Below are positions 31,135-41,044 of a stretch of DNA of 55,812 nt, piece after piece. Numbering within the stretch: position 1 is the first letter of the stretch; every line of letters starts with the position of its first letter. Position numbers and translations under genes: made by a program. The stretch is from Longimicrobium sp. Lineage in GTDB: Bacteria > Gemmatimonadota > Gemmatimonadetes > Longimicrobiales > Longimicrobiaceae. Below the pieces are notes generated by a model. That model had not been told where the DNA came from, searched no databases, and worked only from the letters and a program-made list of their open reading frames with translations. The DNA lies in assembly GCA_036387335.1 (NCBI GenBank), contig DASVTZ010000081.1:1-55812 (forward strand), read 5' to 3'.

Positions 31135-32574
31135 ATGTTCGAGCGGCGCGACGTCTGGAAGCTGAGCGGGGAAGATCCCTGGCACCCCACCCTCCAGTGG
31201 TACGCGCGGGCAGTCGACGAGCTGCGGTCGCGGAACGGGGAGCACTTCGCTGATCCCACGAGCTGGGGCTACCTGGCCGCGGTGCACGGCACCGACATCC
31301 CGCGCAGCCGCTGGCCCCGGGGCGCCACGTGGAACGCGTGCCAGCACGCGAGCTGGTACTTCCTTCCCTGGCACCGCATCTACCTGCACTACTTCGAAAC
31401 CGTCGTGCGCGCCGCGGTTGCCGGGCTCGGCGGGCCGGGCGACTGGGCGCTGCCGTACTGGGACTACAGCGATCCCACGCGGAGCGACGTGCGCATGCTG
31501 CCGCCCGCCTTCCGTCAGCCGACGATGCCCTCCGGCGAGCCCAACCCGCTGTACACGGACCAGCGCGCGCCCGGGATGAACGATGGCGCGAAGCTGCCGG
31601 CCAGCGCGGTGCTGGTGGACGACGCCATGCGCGAAAAGGTGTTCGCCGATCCGAACACAGGGGGATTCGGCGGCGCGGTGACGGGGTGGAACGATGCGGG
31701 CGGGGTGGTGGGGAGCCTGGAGAACGTTCCGCACGGCGGCGTCCACATGGGGGTCGGGGGGAGGAACCCGCTCGGGTGGATGAGCCGGTTCCGGACCGCC
31801 GGCCTCGATCCCGTCTTCTGGCTGCACCACTGCAACCTGGACCGGCTCTGGGATGCGTGGCTCGCGCAGACGGACGTCCGGCGGGCGAACCCCACCGGCG
31901 CGAAGTGGCGCGCGATGCGGTTCACCATCGGGAGCGGCGACGCGGCGGTGACGCTGGAGGTGGGGGACGTGGTCGACACGAGGGCGCAGCCGCTGGGCTA
32001 TCGCTACGAGAGCCTCTCGCTGCCGGGGGCGCACCCCTCGCTGAAGTCCGCCCGGCGGCCGCTGAAGCCGATCGTCGAAGACGTGCAGCCGGAGATGGTG
32101 GGCGCGACGGAGAAGCGCACCCCGCTCGGCGCCGGTCCCAGTGATGCCGTCGTTGTCGTGTCGGCACCCACCGGGCCCGCGCTCAAGTTCCTGTCGGACA
32201 TCGAGGAGGAACTGCGGCGCGTGTACCTCAAGATCGAGAACGTGGAGGGGAGCGAGCTCGCGGCGTCGTCGTACATGGTGCACGTCAACCTGCCGCCAGG
32301 CGCCGCTGCCGCCGACCACCCCGAGCGCCGCGCCGGCCAGATCTCCATGTTTGGCGTGGCGGAGGCGTCCCGCGGCGACGAGCGGCACGGCGGCGGCGGG
32401 CTCACCTTTTCGTTCGAGATCACCGCCATCGCGCGCGGGCTGGAGGACGCCGGCGATTGGGACCCCGCGCGGCTGCGGGTGACGTTCACTCCCGTGCGAC
32501 GCTCTTTGGACGCCGATGCGGACCCGCGCGAGGGCGGCGTCAGCGCGGGGCGCGTGAGCCTCTTCTACACATGA
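31135..32574 (+). CDS. Tyrosinase-family copper oxidase
   Basis: A 479-residue type 3 copper protein. CuA: His51 (VHG), His71 and His80 in QHASWYFLPWHRIYLHYFE. CuB: the pair in PHGGVHMG and a His in FWLHHCNLDRLWDAW. The C-terminal 200 residues form a beta-rich domain like that of plant-type polyphenol oxidases (YMVHVNLPPG and FSFEITAIARGL). It would oxidise mono- or diphenols to quinones. There is no signal peptide. A GGAATT/GTC pair at about 31070-31090 resembles an ECF-type promoter, weakly. The stop overlaps the next gene by 4 nt (ATGA). Confidence 0.92.
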   Translation: MFERRDVWKLSGEDPWHPTLQWYARAVDELRSRNGEHFADPTSWGYLAAVHGTDIPRSRWPRGATWNACQHASWYFLPWHRIYLHYFETVVRAAVAGLGGPGDWALPYWDYSDPTRSDVRMLPPAFRQPTMPSGEPNPLYTDQRAPGMNDGAKLPASAVLVDDAMREKVFADPNTGGFGGAVTGWNDAGGVVGSLENVPHGGVHMGVGGRNPLGWMSRFRTAGLDPVFWLHHCNLDRLWDAWLAQTDVRRANPTGAKWRAMRFTIGSGDAAVTLEVGDVVDTRAQPLGYRYESLSLPGAHPSLKSARRPLKPIVEDVQPEMVGATEKRTPLGAGPSDAVVVVSAPTGPALKFLSDIEEELRRVYLKIENVEGSELAASSYMVHVNLPPGAAAADHPERRAGQISMFGVAEASRGDERHGGGGLTFSFEITAIARGLEDAGDWDPARLRVTFTPVRRSLDADADPREGGVSAGRVSLFYT

Positions 32575-33269
32575 GGGCGTCTGCTGCTGCGCCTGGCGTG
32601 CTGCACCGCGCGCGCCGCTTCGGATGGCGGCACCCGGAGTGGTGGGTGCTCGCGGCCGCCGCGGGTGCGTGGGCGTGGATGCTCGCCGTGCCGCATCCAC
32701 ACGCGCACGCGCAGGCCGCGTCGGGCGCGGACCTGCGCTGGACGATGACGATGGTGGCCGCGATGATGCTGCCGCTGACCATCCCGCACGTGCGGCACGT
32801 CGCGCGATCGAGCCTGAGGCGGCGGCGGCATCGCGGCGTCGCGGGGTTCCTGGCCGGCTACCTCGCGGTGTGGATGCTCGCGATGACGGCGATCGTGGCT
32901 GCACTCGGCATCGGTGGCCGCGTCGCGGGGTCGACGGTGGTGGCGGGCGTCGCGACGGCGGCGGCGGTGTTGTGGGAGGTCGCGCCCTTCCGCAGGCGGA
33001 TGCTGCGCCGCTGCGGGCGCACGATGCCGCTCGCGCCGCGCGGCTGGCGCGCGGACGCGGACTGCGCACGCTTCGGCGCGATGGCGGGCGCGAGCTGCGT
33101 CTCGGTCTGCTGGGCGCTGATGGCCGTGTGCGTCGTATTCGCGCACAGCCTGCCCGTGATGGCCGTGCTCTTTGGCGTGCAGCTCACCGGCCGCTACCGT
33201 CACGACCCATCCCCCGCGATGACGGCGTTGGCCGTGCTGGGGGTCTGCGTGGCGTCGCTGGCGGCCTAA
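32571..33269 (+). CDS. DUF2182 integral membrane protein, predicted metal-binding
   Basis: A 232-residue protein with five to six spans. The hallmark DUF2182 segments are MTMVAAMMLPLTIPHVRHV, the basic RRRMLRRCGRTMPL, and the Cys-rich span AGASCVSVCWALM. The family is annotated as predicted metal-binding, without a firm biochemical role. Its start overlaps the tyrosinase stop (ATGA), so the two are translationally coupled, which fits a role in copper supply for the tyrosinase. A His-rich extracytoplasmic loop (PHPHAHAQ) follows the first span. Confidence 0.87.
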   Translation: MRASAAAPGVLHRARRFGWRHPEWWVLAAAAGAWAWMLAVPHPHAHAQAASGADLRWTMTMVAAMMLPLTIPHVRHVARSSLRRRRHRGVAGFLAGYLAVWMLAMTAIVAALGIGGRVAGSTVVAGVATAAAVLWEVAPFRRRMLRRCGRTMPLAPRGWRADADCARFGAMAGASCVSVCWALMAVCVVFAHSLPVMAVLFGVQLTGRYRHDPSPAMTALAVLGVCVASLAA

Positions 33270-33648: not shown

Positions 33649-34416
33649 GTGCACCTTTTCCTGCAGACGCGCGCGGAAGCGGCGGCTGCAGGGGAGGCGG
33701 GTACCGTCTTTCAGGGTGACGGTCAGGTCGCCGTGGAGGAGCGGCTCCACGAACGCGATCCGGGCGAGGTTGACGATTGTGGAGCGGTGGATGCGCACGA
33801 AGCGGTCGGGATCGAGGACGCGCTGCTCGAGGGCGGTGAGCGACTTGTGCAGCGTGCGCCGCGTGGTGCCGCTGTGGATGACGATGTGGTTGCCGTCCGC
33901 CTCCAGGTAGTCGATCTCCGCCACGGGGATGAACCGGTGCTGGGAGCCGACCTTGATGGCGAGCGTCTCCGGGTAGCGCGGGCTCTCGGGGGCGTGCATG
34001 AAGGAGATGAGTGCCGCGATGCGCGGGTCCTCCAGGGTGCGCCTGGAACGGACGGCCTCCTTGGCCCGCTCCACCGCGGTGCGGAAGCGCTCCTCGTCGA
34101 ACGGCTTGAGCAGGTAGTCGAGGGCGTACGCCTCGAAGGCGCGGAGCGCGAACTCCACGTGCGCGGAGACGAAGACCGTCACCGGCATGCTCGCCGCGCC
34201 GATCGCCTCCACCACGCCGAAGCCGTCCACGCCGGGCATCTGCACGTCGAGGAAGACCAGGTCGGGCGGCGAGTCGCGGAGCTGGCGGATCGCGTCCGCC
34301 CCGTTGGCGCACTCTCCAGCCACCGTCAGCTCGGCGTCGGCGGCGACGAGCGCGGCGATGCGGCCCCGCGCGATGGCGTCGTCGTCCACGATCAGCGTGC
34401 GGATGGGGGTGCTCAT
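33637..34416 (-). CDS. LytTR-family response regulator
   Basis: A 259-residue two-domain regulator. The receiver domain (1-120) has the acidic pair DDD at 11-13, phospho-acceptor Asp57 in VFLDVQMPG, and Lys in LLKPFDEE. The LytTR DNA-binding domain (about 155-255) includes IPVAEIDYLEADGNHIVIH and FVRIHRSTIVNLARI. Its ATG overlaps the kinase stop (ATGA). It is the natural output partner of the adjoining double LytS-like kinase and the last intact gene of the ABC/M1 operon. Confidence 0.94.
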   Translation of the reverse strand: MSTPIRTLIVDDDAIARGRIAALVAADAELTVAGECANGADAIRQLRDSPPDLVFLDVQMPGVDGFGVVEAIGAASMPVTVFVSAHVEFALRAFEAYALDYLLKPFDEERFRTAVERAKEAVRSRRTLEDPRIAALISFMHAPESPRYPETLAIKVGSQHRFIPVAEIDYLEADGNHIVIHSGTTRRTLHKSLTALEQRVLDPDRFVRIHRSTIVNLARIAFVEPLLHGDLTVTLKDGTRLPCSRRFRARLQEKVHFAS

Positions 34417-36626
34417 CGGTCCATGATCGTCGCTTCGTGCCAGGGAACGCGGAGGCGCGCGGTGGTGCCGCCCGCGGCGCGCGGCAACAGGTCGAGCGAC
34501 TGGTCGGCGCCGTAGAGCTGCGCCAGCCGCGCCCGCGTGTTGCTTAGGCCGATTCCGGCGCCCGGCGCATCTCCCGCCGCCGCGCCCGGGCCATCGTCGC
34601 TGACCTCCACCTCCAGCCAGCGCCCCGCCCGCCGCGCCGCGATCCGCAGCCGCCCCTCGCCGGCGGGAGCGATGGCGTGCTTCACCGCGTTCTCCACCAG
34701 CGGCTGCAGCGACATGTGCGGGAGGAAGGCGCCGAGCGCGTCGTCGTCCAGGGCCCACTCCACCTGGAGCCGCTCCTGCAGCCGCAGCCGCTCGACATCG
34801 ACGAAGTGCCGCAGCGTCTCGATTTCTTCGCTCAAAGTGACCTCCTGGCGTCCGGCGCCGCTCATGGCGTGGTGTAGGAGGCCGGCCAGGCGCGCGATCA
34901 TCATCTCGGCCGTGGCGGGCGCGCCTCGCAGCAGGCCGGTAGCGGCGTGAAGGGCGTTGAAGAGGAAGTGCGGGTTGAGCTGCATCGTCAGCGCACGCAG
35001 CTCGGCCGAAGTGCGCTCCAGCTCGGCGCGCGCGAGCTCGGCCTGCAGCCGCAGCTCCACCCTCTGCCGCTCCCGGTGCCGCCTCGCGTACTCCATCGCG
35101 TCGGCGGCGACGGCGATGGCGGCGTACAGCGCGACGTAGGCGACGAGAGATGCGAGGAAAATCGGCCCCGCCACTTCGGGCACGGTACGGTTCCACCCGC
35201 GCAGCACGGCGCCCGAGACCACGTCGCTGGCCAGGAGCAGCGCCGCGGAGCCCAGCCCCGGCAGGAGGTGCGGCCGCACTCTCGAGCGCCAGCCGCCGTC
35301 CGGAAAGGTACGCGCGGCGCTCGCCCGGAACGCGCGGTACACCAGGTGGACGATGACGGCCGTGGTCATCAGCAGGCAACCGAACGCCTCCGTGGCCGTG
35401 ACGATGCCGCCCCCCGCCCGCCGGGCGCCGACCAGATCGGCGTACTCGCCCCACCAGAGGAACACGAGCCCGCCCGTCAGCAGCAGCCAGACGAGCAGTG
35501 GCGGCGTCCGTGCGCCCCCCACCTGCTCCGCGATCTGGCGCTCCGTCGGCCCCGGCGCGGGCGTCGGGACCGTCTCCTCCTCGTGCCACGGAATGCGGAG
35601 GCGCGCCGTGATGCCACCCGTGGCGTGGGGGAGAACATCCAAGGCCTGTTCCGAGCCGTAGAGCTGCGCCAGCCGCTGCCGTATGTTGCCGAAGTCCCTG
35701 CCGTCGCCAGCCCCGAGCGCCCCGCCCGCCACTGCGCCGACCGCGCCGCCGTCGCTGACCTCCACCTCGAGCCAGCTCTCCGCTCGGCGTGCCGCGATGC
35801 GCAGCCGTCTCTCTCCGGCGGGCGCGATGCCGTGCATCATCGCGCTCTCCACCAACGGCTGCAGCGTCATGCAGGGGAGGAAGGCGTCGAGCGCATCCTC
35901 ATCCACCGCCCACTCGACTTGCAGCCGGCCCCGCAGCCGTTCGATCTCCACGAAGTGCTGCAGCGTGCGGATCTCCTCTTCGAGCGCGACCTCCGGGCGT
36001 GCCGCGCCGGTCATGGCGTGGCGAAGCAGGTCCGCCAGGCGCACGATCATCTGCTCGGCCTTCGCGGGGGCGCCGCGAAGGAGGCCGGCCGCCGTGTGAA
36101 GAGCGTCGAAGAGGAACCGGGGGTCGAGCTGCATCGTGAGCGCGCGCAGCTCTGCGGAGGTGCGCTCCAGCTCGGCGCGCGCAAGCTCCGCCTGAAGCCG
36201 CAGCTCCACCATCTGCCGTTCCCGGTGCCGCCGCGCGTACTCCACCGCATGCGCCAGCAGCGCGACCGCCGCCGATGCCGCCGCCATCCACGCGAACGCC
36301 AACAAGTCGCCGCCCCCGTCGAAAGCTGACGTCCCAGCTCGGACGAACCGGTGCGAGGTGACGGCCAGCAACCCCGAGCCGAGCACCACGCACGCGAACC
36401 ACGGCAGCTCGTGCCAGGCGCGCCCAGGGACGGAGACGCCCGCGCGCCAGGAGCTCACGCCGCTTGCAACCGCCAGCACCAGCGCGAACGGGACGGCGGC
36501 CATCCAGTCGCTGCCGCCCCGGACCTGCTGAAGGACCAACCCGGCCGCGAACCCGAACGCCATCCACGCGGCCAGACGCAGCGTGCGCGAACCGGTGCTC
36601 GCCATCACCGCGGCGGGAACGAGCAT
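34413..36626 (-). CDS. Tandem LytS-like sensor kinase: pseudokinase unit plus active unit in one chain
   Basis: A 737-residue protein made of two consecutive four-TM plus histidine-kinase units. Unit 1 spans about 1-345 and unit 2 about 370-737. The linker (EYARRHRERQ...LRLQAELARAELERTSAELR) is almost identical in both. Unit 2 has the intact H-box QLNPHFLFNALH (His553), N-box LVENAVKHA (Asn646) and a DDGPG/GIGLSN lid. In unit 1 these read QLDPRFLFDALH (Arg170), LVESAMMHG (Ser261) and DGGAVG, so it cannot autophosphorylate on His. The start MLVPAAV lies 4 nt after the M1 stop. It should signal to the overlapping LytTR gene. Confidence 0.9.
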   Translation of the reverse strand: MLVPAAVMASTGSRTLRLAAWMAFGFAAGLVLQQVRGGSDWMAAVPFALVLAVASGVSSWRAGVSVPGRAWHELPWFACVVLGSGLLAVTSHRFVRAGTSAFDGGGDLLAFAWMAAASAAVALLAHAVEYARRHRERQMVELRLQAELARAELERTSAELRALTMQLDPRFLFDALHTAAGLLRGAPAKAEQMIVRLADLLRHAMTGAARPEVALEEEIRTLQHFVEIERLRGRLQVEWAVDEDALDAFLPCMTLQPLVESAMMHGIAPAGERRLRIAARRAESWLEVEVSDGGAVGAVAGGALGAGDGRDFGNIRQRLAQLYGSEQALDVLPHATGGITARLRIPWHEEETVPTPAPGPTERQIAEQVGGARTPPLLVWLLLTGGLVFLWWGEYADLVGARRAGGGIVTATEAFGCLLMTTAVIVHLVYRAFRASAARTFPDGGWRSRVRPHLLPGLGSAALLLASDVVSGAVLRGWNRTVPEVAGPIFLASLVAYVALYAAIAVAADAMEYARRHRERQRVELRLQAELARAELERTSAELRALTMQLNPHFLFNALHAATGLLRGAPATAEMMIARLAGLLHHAMSGAGRQEVTLSEEIETLRHFVDVERLRLQERLQVEWALDDDALGAFLPHMSLQPLVENAVKHAIAPAGEGRLRIAARRAGRWLEVEVSDDGPGAAAGDAPGAGIGLSNTRARLAQLYGADQSLDLLPRAAGGTTARLRVPWHEATIMDR
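34968..35105 (-). repeat. Direct intragenic repeat within the double kinase gene
   Basis: This segment, coding for the last TM exit, the linker and the H-box region of unit 2, is nearly identical in nucleotide sequence to 36117-36250 (unit 1). The offset is 1149 bp, exactly 383 codons. The identity is highest over the helix encoding RAELERTSAELRALTMQL, pointing to recent duplication or gene conversion. Confidence 0.75.
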
Positions 36627-36630
36627 TGGC

Positions 36631-39600
36631 TCACAAAGGTGCCTCGGTCGCGACCACCCTGTTGTCGCGCCGCTCAACCTCCACCCGCAGCACGTGGGGG
36701 TCGACGGTGACATCGCCGGGACGCCCGCGCACGACCACCCGCACGAGGTTGCGGCCCGAGCGCAGCCGGTGCCGGGAGACTGCAGGCGAACCACCCTCCG
36801 CCGGCGCAATCCCGAGGTCGATCAGCTCGTCGAGCGGCACCTCGGCCTCACCGTCCGCGCGGAGTGCGCGCTTGCGGGCCTGGATGATGGCGGTCACCTC
36901 GTACCGCCCGTCGCCGAGCGGACGGTAGCGGGCGGAATCGGCCGACATGTCGTACAGCACCACCCCCTCCAGCCATTCGGCGATCAGGGCGCTCCGCTCC
37001 GGGCCCGCGCCATCCTGGAGCAGCCGGACAAGGTCGCGTACCTGCGGCCGCGAGCGAGCGCCGCCGTGATCCGCCACCAGACGCCGCAGCGCGCGGTTCA
37101 TCGGATCCTCCCCCACCAGATCGCGAAGACCGTTCATGACGACCGCGCCCTTTCCATAGTAGAGGTGCGACTGGTCCACGATCCGCGAGAGCGGCGGCTC
37201 CGGGTCGCGCTCGCGGGTTCGGCCCTGCGCGTACCGCTCCAGATCGGCCTCCACGATCCTGGCGACGTGCGCGCGGCCATGGAGCCGCTCCAGCACGATC
37301 TGCTCCGAGTACTTGGCGAGCGACTCGGTGAGGGTGGCGGCGCCCGGCCCCGCGCCGGCGTTCACCTGGTGCCCCCACCACTGGTGCGACACCTCGTGCG
37401 CCACACGCCGCCCGATCAGGTCGATCTGCCGCGGGTCGCGCGCGTCGGTCAGGAAGCCGCGATTCTCGGGGAAGTAGACCATCCCCGGCAGCGCGTACGC
37501 ACCGAAGTTCCAGTAGCCGGGCACCTCCACGATGCGCAGCGTGCGATGCGGATAGGGGCCGAAGGCGCGCGTGAACAGCTCCATCGACGCCGCGGCCGTG
37601 CGCAGCATACGGTCCACGTTGGTGGCGTGCGCCGGGTGGAAGTAGACCTCGATCGCCACGCCGTTGCGCACCACGCGCCGCACCTCGTAGCGCGCCGAGA
37701 CGTAGCCGAAGCGCGCGTTGACGGGGCCAGCCGTGCGGTAGCGGAAGAAGCGCCGCCCTCCCCGACGCCATTCTCCGGTCAGCTCCCCCGGCGCCACCGC
37801 GATCTGGTCCGCGCTCGTGGAGACCGTCGTCTCGAATGACGCGCGGTCGAGCGCCGGCCCGTCCTCCTCCTCCACTGTCTGCTCGGGCCGCGGCGGCAGG
37901 CCGTACTCGCGACGGTCCGCGGGCCGGGTGAGCTCCTGGCTGCCGCGGTAGCCGAGCGTCGGGAAGGCGGCGTGGTGGGCGAGCATGGTGCCGTTGTCGG
38001 CGATGGACAGGTCGAACCCCGACGCCCGGATTCCCCGCTGCGCTTCTTCCAGGTGATAGCCCATGCGCGCCTCCGCGCCGGGCATGAGCGGGCGCCGCAA
38101 CCGGAACGCGTACATCCCGAACCGCGCATCGCGCACCACCGGGTCCGCGCCCTCCACCCACAGCCGCACCCCGTCCGTCTGCCGCCCGACCGTGACCCAT
38201 ACGGTGTCGATCGTCCGCGCAGTTTCGTTGCGCAGCCGGTAGACGCCGCGCGCCGCGAAACGCCGCTGCTCGGGGAAGATCTCCACGTCCGCTCGCACCG
38301 CCACGATGCTCGGCATCGGCGCTGACTCCACGCGCTTGTACGCGCGCTCGTAGCCCGCCCTCCAGCGCGCGGCCTCGTCCTCCGTTTCGGAGGAGTTCAG
38401 CCGGTGCGTGTTGTGGAAGAGGAACCCCGCCGTGACCAGCACGAGGACGGCACACGACAGCGCGCCGGCCACCCCTCGCCGCCCAAGCCGCGCCGGAAGC
38501 GCCCGGATTCGCGCCCGCAGCGACCCCGCGGTGCCGCGCCGCCAGAGTCCGTACGTGACCTGGGCGAGCAGCGCCGCGCACAACCCCCAGTACAGCATGA
38601 ACCACCGCGCCGCCGCGCCCGGCTGCCCATCACCCGCCATGTCCGAGTGCGGGACGGGCGGGATGGCGCCGTAGCGGAGGAGCGGGCCGAGCCCGAGCGC
38701 CTCGCCGTGCAGCGTGATCATGGCGGTGAGCGCCGCCAGCAGGATCCCCGCGGAGCGGTTGGGGCTCAGAGTCTGCGCCAGAAGCGCCGCCACGGCGAAG
38801 AGGACGAGCGGGACGCCCGCCGCCGCCAGCAGCCGCCGGTGCAGCATCGGCTCGAAGTGCGTGTAGCCGCGCGATCCCTGCATCGCCACGACCGTCACCC
38901 CCGTTGCCGCGCAGAGCACCGCGATCACCACCAACAGCGTCCCCAGCCGCGCCAGGTAGAAGACCGCGCTCCGGGCCGGCGTCGCGTCCACCAGCTCCGC
39001 GATCCCCGCCGAGCGCTCCCGCCAGACCAGCTCCGCGCTGAAGAAGACGACCACCGCCATCCCGAGATCCGACAGGAGCCGCGCGGCGATGCCGAGCAGC
39101 AGCCCCGTCGTGGGATAGGCGCGCGACCCGTACTCCGCCGCCTCTCCGCCCGAGAGGTTCGCCCACAGCACGATCACCCAGAGCGCCATCAGCGCCAGAA
39201 AGGGCCGGCTGGTCAGCACGTACGCCGTCTGCGCGCGCACCGTCGACAGGAACGCCGCCCGCCCCGTGCCCCGCGCGCTGGCCGCCACGGGCCGGTACGC
39301 GGGGATCACGGCCGGCCTCACCTCCGCGGGCGCTCGGACCGCGCGCTGCCGGGGCGCCCGCAAGCCGTCGTTGCGCCACCGCGCGAGCGCCAGCGCCCCG
39401 GCCGCGACGGCCAGCCACAGGAGCCGGTTGGCGAGTAGCGCCCCCCGGAGCGCGACGTAGCGCGAGTTCTGGTCGTGTGGCGTCCACGAGCGCGCCTGCT
39501 CGAACACCGCCGAGATCCCGAACGGGTCCAGGATCGCCGCCCGCGCCAGCGTCTCCGCCGACGCGGGCGCCGCGCCGGCGATGAGCGGCGACGCGAGCAG

Positions 39601-40164
39601 ATAGGCTACAAGGAAATACCCCGCATACAGCGCCAGGGCTCCCACGTAGCCGGCGAGCGCGCTCCGCGTCAGCACCGCCACGGTGAAGACGGTCGCGGCC
39701 AGGAGGAGCAGGTTCGGGATGCCGATCACCGCCAGCGCCCAGAACGGCGCGGCGGGGTCGGCGGGGCCCAGCCGCTCCGGTTCGATGACGGCCAGCACGG
39801 GCGCCAGTGACATCCCGAGCGCCGCCAGCCCCAATACCGACGCGCCCGCCAGCACCGCGCCCCCGAAGCGCCCGAGTAGGTAGCGCGACCGCCCGACCGG
39901 AGTGCCGCGCACGATCTCCTCCATCCCGTGCTCCGCATCGCGCAGCGCGGCCGCGGTGCAGAAGACCGTCGCCAGGAAAATGGCCGGCAGCGAGAGGAGG
40001 CCCATCACCTGGGCGGCGACGAAGGGCGAGTTGACGTTGGCGGATTCTGGCCCGTAGCCGCTAGCGACCAGCCCGACGCCCAGGAGCAGGAAGAGGAGCG
40101 CGGCGACGGCGAACGCGGGCTGGCGCGTCTGGAGGCGCCACTCGAAGCGCAGGAGCGGAAACAT
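36631..40164 (-). CDS. ABC permease fused to M1-family aminopeptidase
   Basis: A 1177-residue protein. Residues 1-620 form an ABC-2-like permease with about twelve spans in two sets of six. Residues 660-1177 are a gluzincin peptidase facing the periplasm. The zinc site is HEVSHQWWG, with the third ligand Glu in TLTESLAKY 18-20 residues later, so it looks active. A GMVYFPENR segment precedes it. A beta-rich C-terminal domain ends near VEVERRDNRVV. Fusions of this type occur beside an ABC ATPase in Gemmatimonadota and Bacteroidota; the substrate is unknown. ATG 40164 was chosen, 7 nt after the ATPase stop; upstream codons overlap the ATPase. Confidence 0.93.
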   Translation of the reverse strand: MFPLLRFEWRLQTRQPAFAVAALLFLLLGVGLVASGYGPESANVNSPFVAAQVMGLLSLPAIFLATVFCTAAALRDAEHGMEEIVRGTPVGRSRYLLGRFGGAVLAGASVLGLAALGMSLAPVLAVIEPERLGPADPAAPFWALAVIGIPNLLLLAATVFTVAVLTRSALAGYVGALALYAGYFLVAYLLASPLIAGAAPASAETLARAAILDPFGISAVFEQARSWTPHDQNSRYVALRGALLANRLLWLAVAAGALALARWRNDGLRAPRQRAVRAPAEVRPAVIPAYRPVAASARGTGRAAFLSTVRAQTAYVLTSRPFLALMALWVIVLWANLSGGEAAEYGSRAYPTTGLLLGIAARLLSDLGMAVVVFFSAELVWRERSAGIAELVDATPARSAVFYLARLGTLLVVIAVLCAATGVTVVAMQGSRGYTHFEPMLHRRLLAAAGVPLVLFAVAALLAQTLSPNRSAGILLAALTAMITLHGEALGLGPLLRYGAIPPVPHSDMAGDGQPGAAARWFMLYWGLCAALLAQVTYGLWRRGTAGSLRARIRALPARLGRRGVAGALSCAVLVLVTAGFLFHNTHRLNSSETEDEAARWRAGYERAYKRVESAPMPSIVAVRADVEIFPEQRRFAARGVYRLRNETARTIDTVWVTVGRQTDGVRLWVEGADPVVRDARFGMYAFRLRRPLMPGAEARMGYHLEEAQRGIRASGFDLSIADNGTMLAHHAAFPTLGYRGSQELTRPADRREYGLPPRPEQTVEEEDGPALDRASFETTVSTSADQIAVAPGELTGEWRRGGRRFFRYRTAGPVNARFGYVSARYEVRRVVRNGVAIEVYFHPAHATNVDRMLRTAAASMELFTRAFGPYPHRTLRIVEVPGYWNFGAYALPGMVYFPENRGFLTDARDPRQIDLIGRRVAHEVSHQWWGHQVNAGAGPGAATLTESLAKYSEQIVLERLHGRAHVARIVEADLERYAQGRTRERDPEPPLSRIVDQSHLYYGKGAVVMNGLRDLVGEDPMNRALRRLVADHGGARSRPQVRDLVRLLQDGAGPERSALIAEWLEGVVLYDMSADSARYRPLGDGRYEVTAIIQARKRALRADGEAEVPLDELIDLGIAPAEGGSPAVSRHRLRSGRNLVRVVVRGRPGDVTVDPHVLRVEVERRDNRVVATEAPL

Positions 40165-40171
40165 CGTCCCC

Positions 40172-41044
40172 CTACGCCGCACGCGCCTGGAGGACGCTGA
40201 AGTACACGTCCTCCAGCCCCGGCTGCACCGCCTCGAATCCCTGCTCGGGACGATGGTCCGCGAGCACGTGCACCCGCGTCTTCCCCTCGAACAGCTGGGT
40301 GGAGAGCACCCGCATCGACGCCCGGTACTCCTCCACCGCGGCCTGGGTGGCGACCGTGGCCCACACGCGCCCATCCAGCTCCGCCACCAGCTCGCGCGGC
40401 GCCCCTTCGCGCAGGATGCGCCCCTCCGCCAGGATCGCCATCCGCGGGCAGAGCTGGCGCACGTCTTCCACGATGTGGGTCGAGAGGATGACGATGACCT
40501 GCTCCGCCACCTCCGCCAGCAGGTTGTGGAAGCGGTTTCGCTCCTCGGGATCGAGCCCCGCGGTCGGCTCGTCGACGATGATGAGGCGCGGGTCGCCGAG
40601 CAGCGCCTGCGCGATCCCGAAGCGCTGGCGCATCCCCCCGCTGAACCCGCTCACCGCTTTCTTCCGGTGCTCCCACAGGTTGACCTGGTGCAGGAGCGCC
40701 TCCACCTGCTCCTTCCGCGACCGCCGCTCCGCGAGCCCCTTGAGCACCGCCAGGTGGTCCAGCAGCTCCAGCGCCGGCACCCTTGGATACACCCCAAACT
40801 GCTGCGGCAAATAGCCGAGCTGCCTGCGGTGCGCCTCCGGTTGCGCGAGCACATCCAGCCCGTCGAACTCGATGCTCCCCGCGTCCGGCTCCTGGAGCGT
40901 CGCCAGCGTCCGCATCAGCGAGCTCTTCCCGGCGCCGTTCGGCCCCAGCAGCCCAAAGAGCCCCCGCCCGATGTCGAGGTCGATCCCCCGCAACGCATGT
41001 ACGCCGTTCGGGTAGGTCTTCGTCAGTGCGCGGATCGTGAGCAT
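40172..41044 (-). CDS. ABC transporter ATP-binding protein
   Basis: A 290-residue nucleotide-binding subunit of the DrrA/CcmA-like clade. Walker [11 protein letters not shown]-loop in [10 protein letters not shown], signature [15 protein letters not shown], Walker [13 protein letters not shown], switch His in [10 protein letters not shown]-terminal extension of about 75 residues ends [15 protein letters not shown]. It is the first gene of the minus-strand operon and energises the fused permease downstream. Confidence 0.95.

Follow-up and report, generated by a model that had tools for sequence, protein, structure and literature searches.

The stretch of DNA analysed here (the window, 55,812 nt from a soil bacterium, Longimicrobium sp., whose draft genome comprises 265 contigs) carries on its minus strand one reading frame that encodes two LytS-type histidine kinase units in tandem, with a LytTR response regulator gene adjoining it downstream (Table 1). 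The frame contains no internal stop, and its translation, Pfam matches and hydropathy bear out the preliminary description of two complete units in 737 residues, in which the strand had gone unstated.

Table 1. Features of the fused kinase locus, in window coordinates
Feature	Position	Strand	Basis or remarks
Fused two-unit LytS-type kinase, 737 aa	34413..36626	-	ATG at 36626, TGA at 34415-34413; translation; Pfam PF06580 twice
Unit 1 membrane half, four hydrophobic helices (residues 14-130)	36237..36587	-	Hydropathy; model helices
Unit 1 DHp and ATPase-like module, catalytically degraded (residues 131-350)	35577..36236	-	Motifs; pLDDT >90 across most
Codon of Arg170, in place of the phospho-acceptor His	36117..36119	-	Translation, motifs, residue check
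Ser261 codon, at the N-box Asn position	35844..35846	-	Translation, motifs, residue check
Linker and unit 2 membrane half, four hydrophobic helices (residues 351-510)	35097..35576	-	Hydropathy; model
Unit 2 DHp and HATPase_c, catalytically intact (residues 511-737)	34416..35096	-	PF06580, PF02518; motifs
His553 codon, predicted phospho-acceptor	34968..34970	-	Motifs, residue check
Asn646 codon, N box	34689..34691	-	Motifs, residue check
Cognate LytTR response regulator, 259 aa	33637..34416	-	Response_reg and LytTR; ATGA overlap with kinase; the three closest fused kinases have orthologues alongside
ABC permease / M1 peptidase fusion gene, upstream of kinase	36631..40164	-	Peptidase_M1 match; 4 nt before kinase start
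ABC transporter ATPase	40172..41044	-	ABC_tran

Each kinase core is preceded by four hydrophobic segments, which appear as helices in the AlphaFold model, and the protein has two PF06580 (His_kinase) stretches and a single HATPase_c domain, located in unit 2. The motifs of unit 2 (LNPHFLFNAL, LQPLVENAVKHA, EVSDDG and GIGLSN, with the N box LQPLVENAVKH) include the phospho-acceptor His, the N-box Asn and the ATP lid of an active LytS-type kinase, and the unit matches both PF06580 and PF02518. The corresponding motifs of unit 1 (LDPRFLFDAL, LQPLVESAMMHG, EVSDGG and GDGRDFGN, with the N box LQPLVESAMMH) are those of a pseudokinase: Arg170 and Ser261 replace the His and the Asn, the first Gly box is degraded, and the unit carries the second PF06580 stretch with no HATPase_c match. 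The preliminary description had these changes, the intact state of unit 2 and all four residue numbers (R170, S261, H553, N646) right; we add that in unit 1 the ATP-lid motif GIGLSN has been replaced as well. In fold and descent unit 1 is of LytS type, as it matches PF06580 above the cut-off (62 bits), stands as sister of unit 2 in the kinase tree and is modelled with a high-confidence fold. About one quarter of the residues differ between the two kinase modules, and the membrane halves are unrelated.

The regulator combines PF00072 with PF04397, the adjacent-gene arrangement of LytS/LytTR systems. The ABC permease / M1 peptidase gene, whose ATPase is encoded at 40172-41044, probably shares an operon with the kinase. 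A conserved operon with the ABC transporter and M1 peptidase was considered and set aside, as these genes are absent beside the kinases of relatives in a neighbourhood comparison. Elsewhere in the window, at 31135-33269 on the plus strand, a tyrosinase gene (PF00264 with DUF7868) is followed by an overlapping gene for a PpoB2 copper-chaperone-type membrane protein (PF09948), likely a copper enzyme with its maturation partner. Separately, a gene similar to the ABC permease / M1 peptidase fusion adjoins a kinase locus in another genome (G005, L055).

A search for homologues with two PF06580 units, as the preliminary description had proposed, shows that the layout is not peculiar to the window. 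The protein search over 21 genomes of the window's family returned several proteins with two matches per frame, and direct inspection established nine fused doubles (the window, G001, G007, G011, G015, G008, G018, G013 and G012); two more, G181 and G272, come from another family of the same class. The fused form is itself a small family, placed in the Gemmatimonadota by G007, a metagenome assembly (isolate RYN_364) from Gemmatimonadetes. We also rejected the notion that every long open frame is a double; where such frames precede single kinases in this high-GC genome, they are non-coding (G000:C140 checked). In the neighbourhood comparison nearly every double has one regulator alongside. Identity is 63-64% among the regulators of the window, G001, G007 and G011 and no higher than about 50% for others; with those of G015 and G272, these four form one clade (support 99/96) whose members all lie beside fused doubles.

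Which half is dead varies. Motif comparison finds unit 1 dead in the window, G015, G008, G018, G013 and G012, unit 2 dead in G011 and G181, and both halves alive in G001 and G007; G272 keeps His and N box in both units, with an altered Asp box in unit 1. Exactly one half is dead in seven of the nine same-family doubles (the first in six, the second once). Adjacent-gene pairs repeat the pattern, in the order dead then live (G014:C48, G017:C32) or live then dead (G007:C69, G014:C214). A census covered 94 LytS units from the 21 genomes and scored the few that are truncated by contig ends as not dead; 11 of 28 paired units were dead and 0 of 66 lone ones; exactly one unit was dead in 11 of 14 pairs, and doubly dead pairs numbered zero. 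By unit this gives a Fisher p of 3e-7, a value that overstates the evidence, the pairs being partly kin by descent; within its lineage the pattern exceeds chance. His and N-box Asn are lost jointly, within one unit, in all dead units except that of G018, which keeps its His, and a unit without His but retaining Asn was not seen among the census units. In one of the adjacent-gene pairs (G014:C48, L045 6954-9686) the dead and the live kinase lie in frame with one stop codon between them, a state that may precede fusion or follow a split.

Among known systems, the window resembles the LytS/LytTR systems (PF06580 kinases such as BtsS, YpdA and GanS, with a PF04397 regulator) in its multi-helix membrane halves, its PF06580 DHp and ATPase modules and its adjacent LytTR regulator. 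Known members, however, are homodimers of a single unit, whereas here each chain holds two, the first lacking His, N-box Asn and ATP lid. The closest described system is the two-gene FasBC/FasA of Streptococcus pyogenes, in which two kinase-like membrane proteins heterodimerise and serve one regulator, FasA; FasB and FasC formed heterodimers but not homodimers in two-hybrid assays, and FasC, whose ATPase domain is dispensable and which keeps its phospho-acceptor His246, was proposed to be a pseudokinase (PMC12675982). The window shares with it two kinase-like units per regulator, one of them a pseudokinase; it differs in that the units are fused and that unit 1, with R170, has lost the ATP site too. 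Catalytically dead kinase-like proteins that modulate signalling partners by direct contact have also been reported in DivL (PMC4211667), RocA with CsrS/CovS (PMC6635533) and a ChrS variant with HrrS (PMC9491836); these belong to other kinase families and are proteins in their own right, with no fusion to the live partner. Single-chain chemoreceptors, natural or engineered, are like the window protein in holding two subunits of a normally dimeric protein in one chain, but they are receptors rather than kinases, and the accessible part of that account describes no dead half (PMC4692393). The preliminary description knew of no family with this layout. For the fused kinase-pseudokinase, no description turned up in our searches of the open-access literature; as a two-gene arrangement, the equivalent is the Fas system.

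Structure models suggest how the two units may sit together. AlphaFold models of the window protein and its G015 counterpart, built from alignments of fused doubles and single kinases, reach mean pLDDT values of 79.6 and 81.2, with all four kinase modules mostly above 90, and pTM values of just 0.67 and 0.66. The GanS kinase domain, a single chain of about 205 residues, is the best structural match in the PDB for both models and the only PDB match by sequence. In each case one GanS chain spans from the start of the unit 1 DHp to the end of the unit 2 ATPase (residues 165-735, Z 18.5, in the window; 191-754, Z 19.0, in G015), the ranges being known by their first and last residues alone. Such a span is expected if both DHp domains pack within the chain; taken literally, however, it would put the unit 2 ATPase near the unit 1 DHp, the choice between cis and trans geometry lying beyond AlphaFold's power to settle.

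The fusion and its recurrence, the missing catalytic residues, the selection on dead halves described below and the paired regulator are observations. Our main reading of them, to which we give a probability of roughly 0.6, is that the protein is a natural single-chain histidine kinase heterodimer. A tandem duplication would have joined two LytS-type units that each bring a four-helix membrane half, and the two kinase modules would form a single DHp four-helix bundle within the molecule. Unit 1, having neither phospho-acceptor nor ATP site, would serve as the structural or allosteric half and presumably as a second sensory half; unit 2 would bind ATP and probably autophosphorylate His553 in cis, from which the phosphate would pass to the single adjacent LytTR regulator. 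The joint loss of His and Asn, never split between units, points to cis rather than trans autophosphorylation within the pair: a trans arrangement would split the losses, and their coincidence favours either a live unit that is phosphorylated in cis or dimers made of live units. In G018, where the dead unit keeps its His, trans phosphorylation would be conceivable.

That second option, in which two molecules of the fused protein would dimerise, unit 2 to unit 2 and unit 1 to unit 1, with unit 1 as an extra sensor arm, agrees as well with the joint losses. BtsS and other LytS-type kinases do act as homodimers (PMC10653868), and engineered single-chain chemoreceptors are reported to swap subunits between molecules (PMC4692393). 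We nonetheless consider it rather unlikely: one kinase chain matches across both units in both AlphaFold models, fusion gives the partner a very high local concentration, and dead/live adjacent-gene pairs exist, like the FasB and FasC that pair only with each other (two-hybrid, PMC12675982). The kinase-pseudokinase pair of the preliminary description is accordingly upheld by recurrence, by the one-dead-one-live pattern, by purifying selection and by two models spanning both units; that the pair is obligate and intramolecular is less certain, dimers of the fused protein through live halves being the competing account.

Selection bears on whether unit 1 is instead a decaying relic of tandem duplication, whose function is limited to keeping the frame open. 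Between G015 and G008, an orthologous pair from different genera, dN/dS is 0.18 for the shared dead unit 1 and 0.16 for the live unit 2 (the latter from its available DHp part), with 0.4-0.5 for the membrane halves; within the dead unit the stretch from TM4 through the coil to the DHp is 70-95% conserved and the ATP lid 20-40%. On the branch of the window's unit 1, non-synonymous changes fall below the neutral level (omega 0.39-0.46, p 0.0017), a sign of purifying selection. The dead unit 2 of G011, with omega about 1.1-1.2, is compatible with plain decay. Together these values suggest that some dead halves are kept and that at least one may be decaying. The relic account can call further on the long branches of dead units in the kinase-module tree and on the doubles whose halves are both alive and almost the same, from which decay could plausibly have started, but the low omega across genera and in the window, the full frame and membrane half retained in every case, and the retention of the DHp part where the ATP lid is lost make it improbable. 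That two genes were wrongly joined in assembly, an outcome the preliminary description had flagged as fatal and for which one could cite the draft state of the genome and the G001 and G007 doubles, which lie close to contig ends and have all but identical kinase modules, is scarcely credible, since the same layout and an orthologous regulator recur in independently assembled genomes and the window's units have diverged far enough for short reads to separate them.

In the kinase-module tree one group, consisting of the window, G001, G007 and G011, holds nothing but fused doubles. Within it the two modules of the same protein cluster together for the window, G001 and G007 (G011 is not resolved), and monophyly of all unit 1 modules is rejected (p 1e-16). 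The membrane halves behave otherwise. The window's unit 2 half is similar to the unit 2 halves of G001 (shuffle z 13) and G011 (z 11), with no such similarity to unit 1 of the same protein (z 1.2). The data allow a clade of unit 1 membrane halves (p 0.39). Pairing of the two membrane halves within a protein can be rejected in G011 (p 0.03); the result for G007 is borderline (0.05), and in the window such pairing is still allowed (0.10). In G007 (L041, G007:C22) DNA identity between the two kinase modules is 95-100% along most of the module and falls abruptly, at the membrane junction, to what unrelated sequences show; G001 (L038, G001:C397) has the same near-identical modules as far as its contig extends. 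This near-identity is an apparent gene conversion tract. G001 and G007 are also homologues that keep His in both units, a case that the preliminary description had expected to refute its proposal; as recently homogenised copies they leave it standing.

The best reading of these data, drawn from few sequences in short-read metagenome assemblies, would be that the fused system is old, that gene conversion homogenises its kinase modules and that one active site is lost once conversion stops. Extended to the group, this yields a proposal that we hold only tentatively: conversion of the kinase modules may have kept the fused doubles of Gemmatimonadota while their membrane halves diverged, and where it stopped either half could lose catalysis and stay as a pseudokinase. 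The result would be a natural series of single-chain kinase heterodimers that can do with one catalytic centre, their second half being only partner and sensor.

Histidine kinases are almost always homodimers, and both their need for two catalytic halves and their asymmetry are debated. In the JAK kinases a kinase and a pseudokinase stand in tandem, and the fused LytS doubles are a bacterial counterpart. Because these proteins look like natural one-chain heterodimers, each half can be mutated separately; a series with both halves alive, the first dead, the second dead, or dead and live units in adjacent genes makes the questions of whether one active site suffices and of cis or trans phosphorylation directly testable, and related bacteria with either half dead are natural material on why kinases pair. 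As an observation the fused LytS kinase-pseudokinase is confirmed, a recurrent and testable pattern, and its interpretation is partly supported.

Beyond the phylum, fused doubles were absent from six genomes of other phyla and from the LytS loci of other taxa listed by a pattern-based scan, which is weak evidence of absence. Among the matches listed by that scan, the only pairs outside the phylum were two adjacent-gene pairs, both in Holophagaceae (L086 5539-7931 and L106 2103-4433). In each the first gene has its His and a degraded ATP site, and these pairs are possibly a two-gene, FasBC-like arrangement outside Gemmatimonadota.
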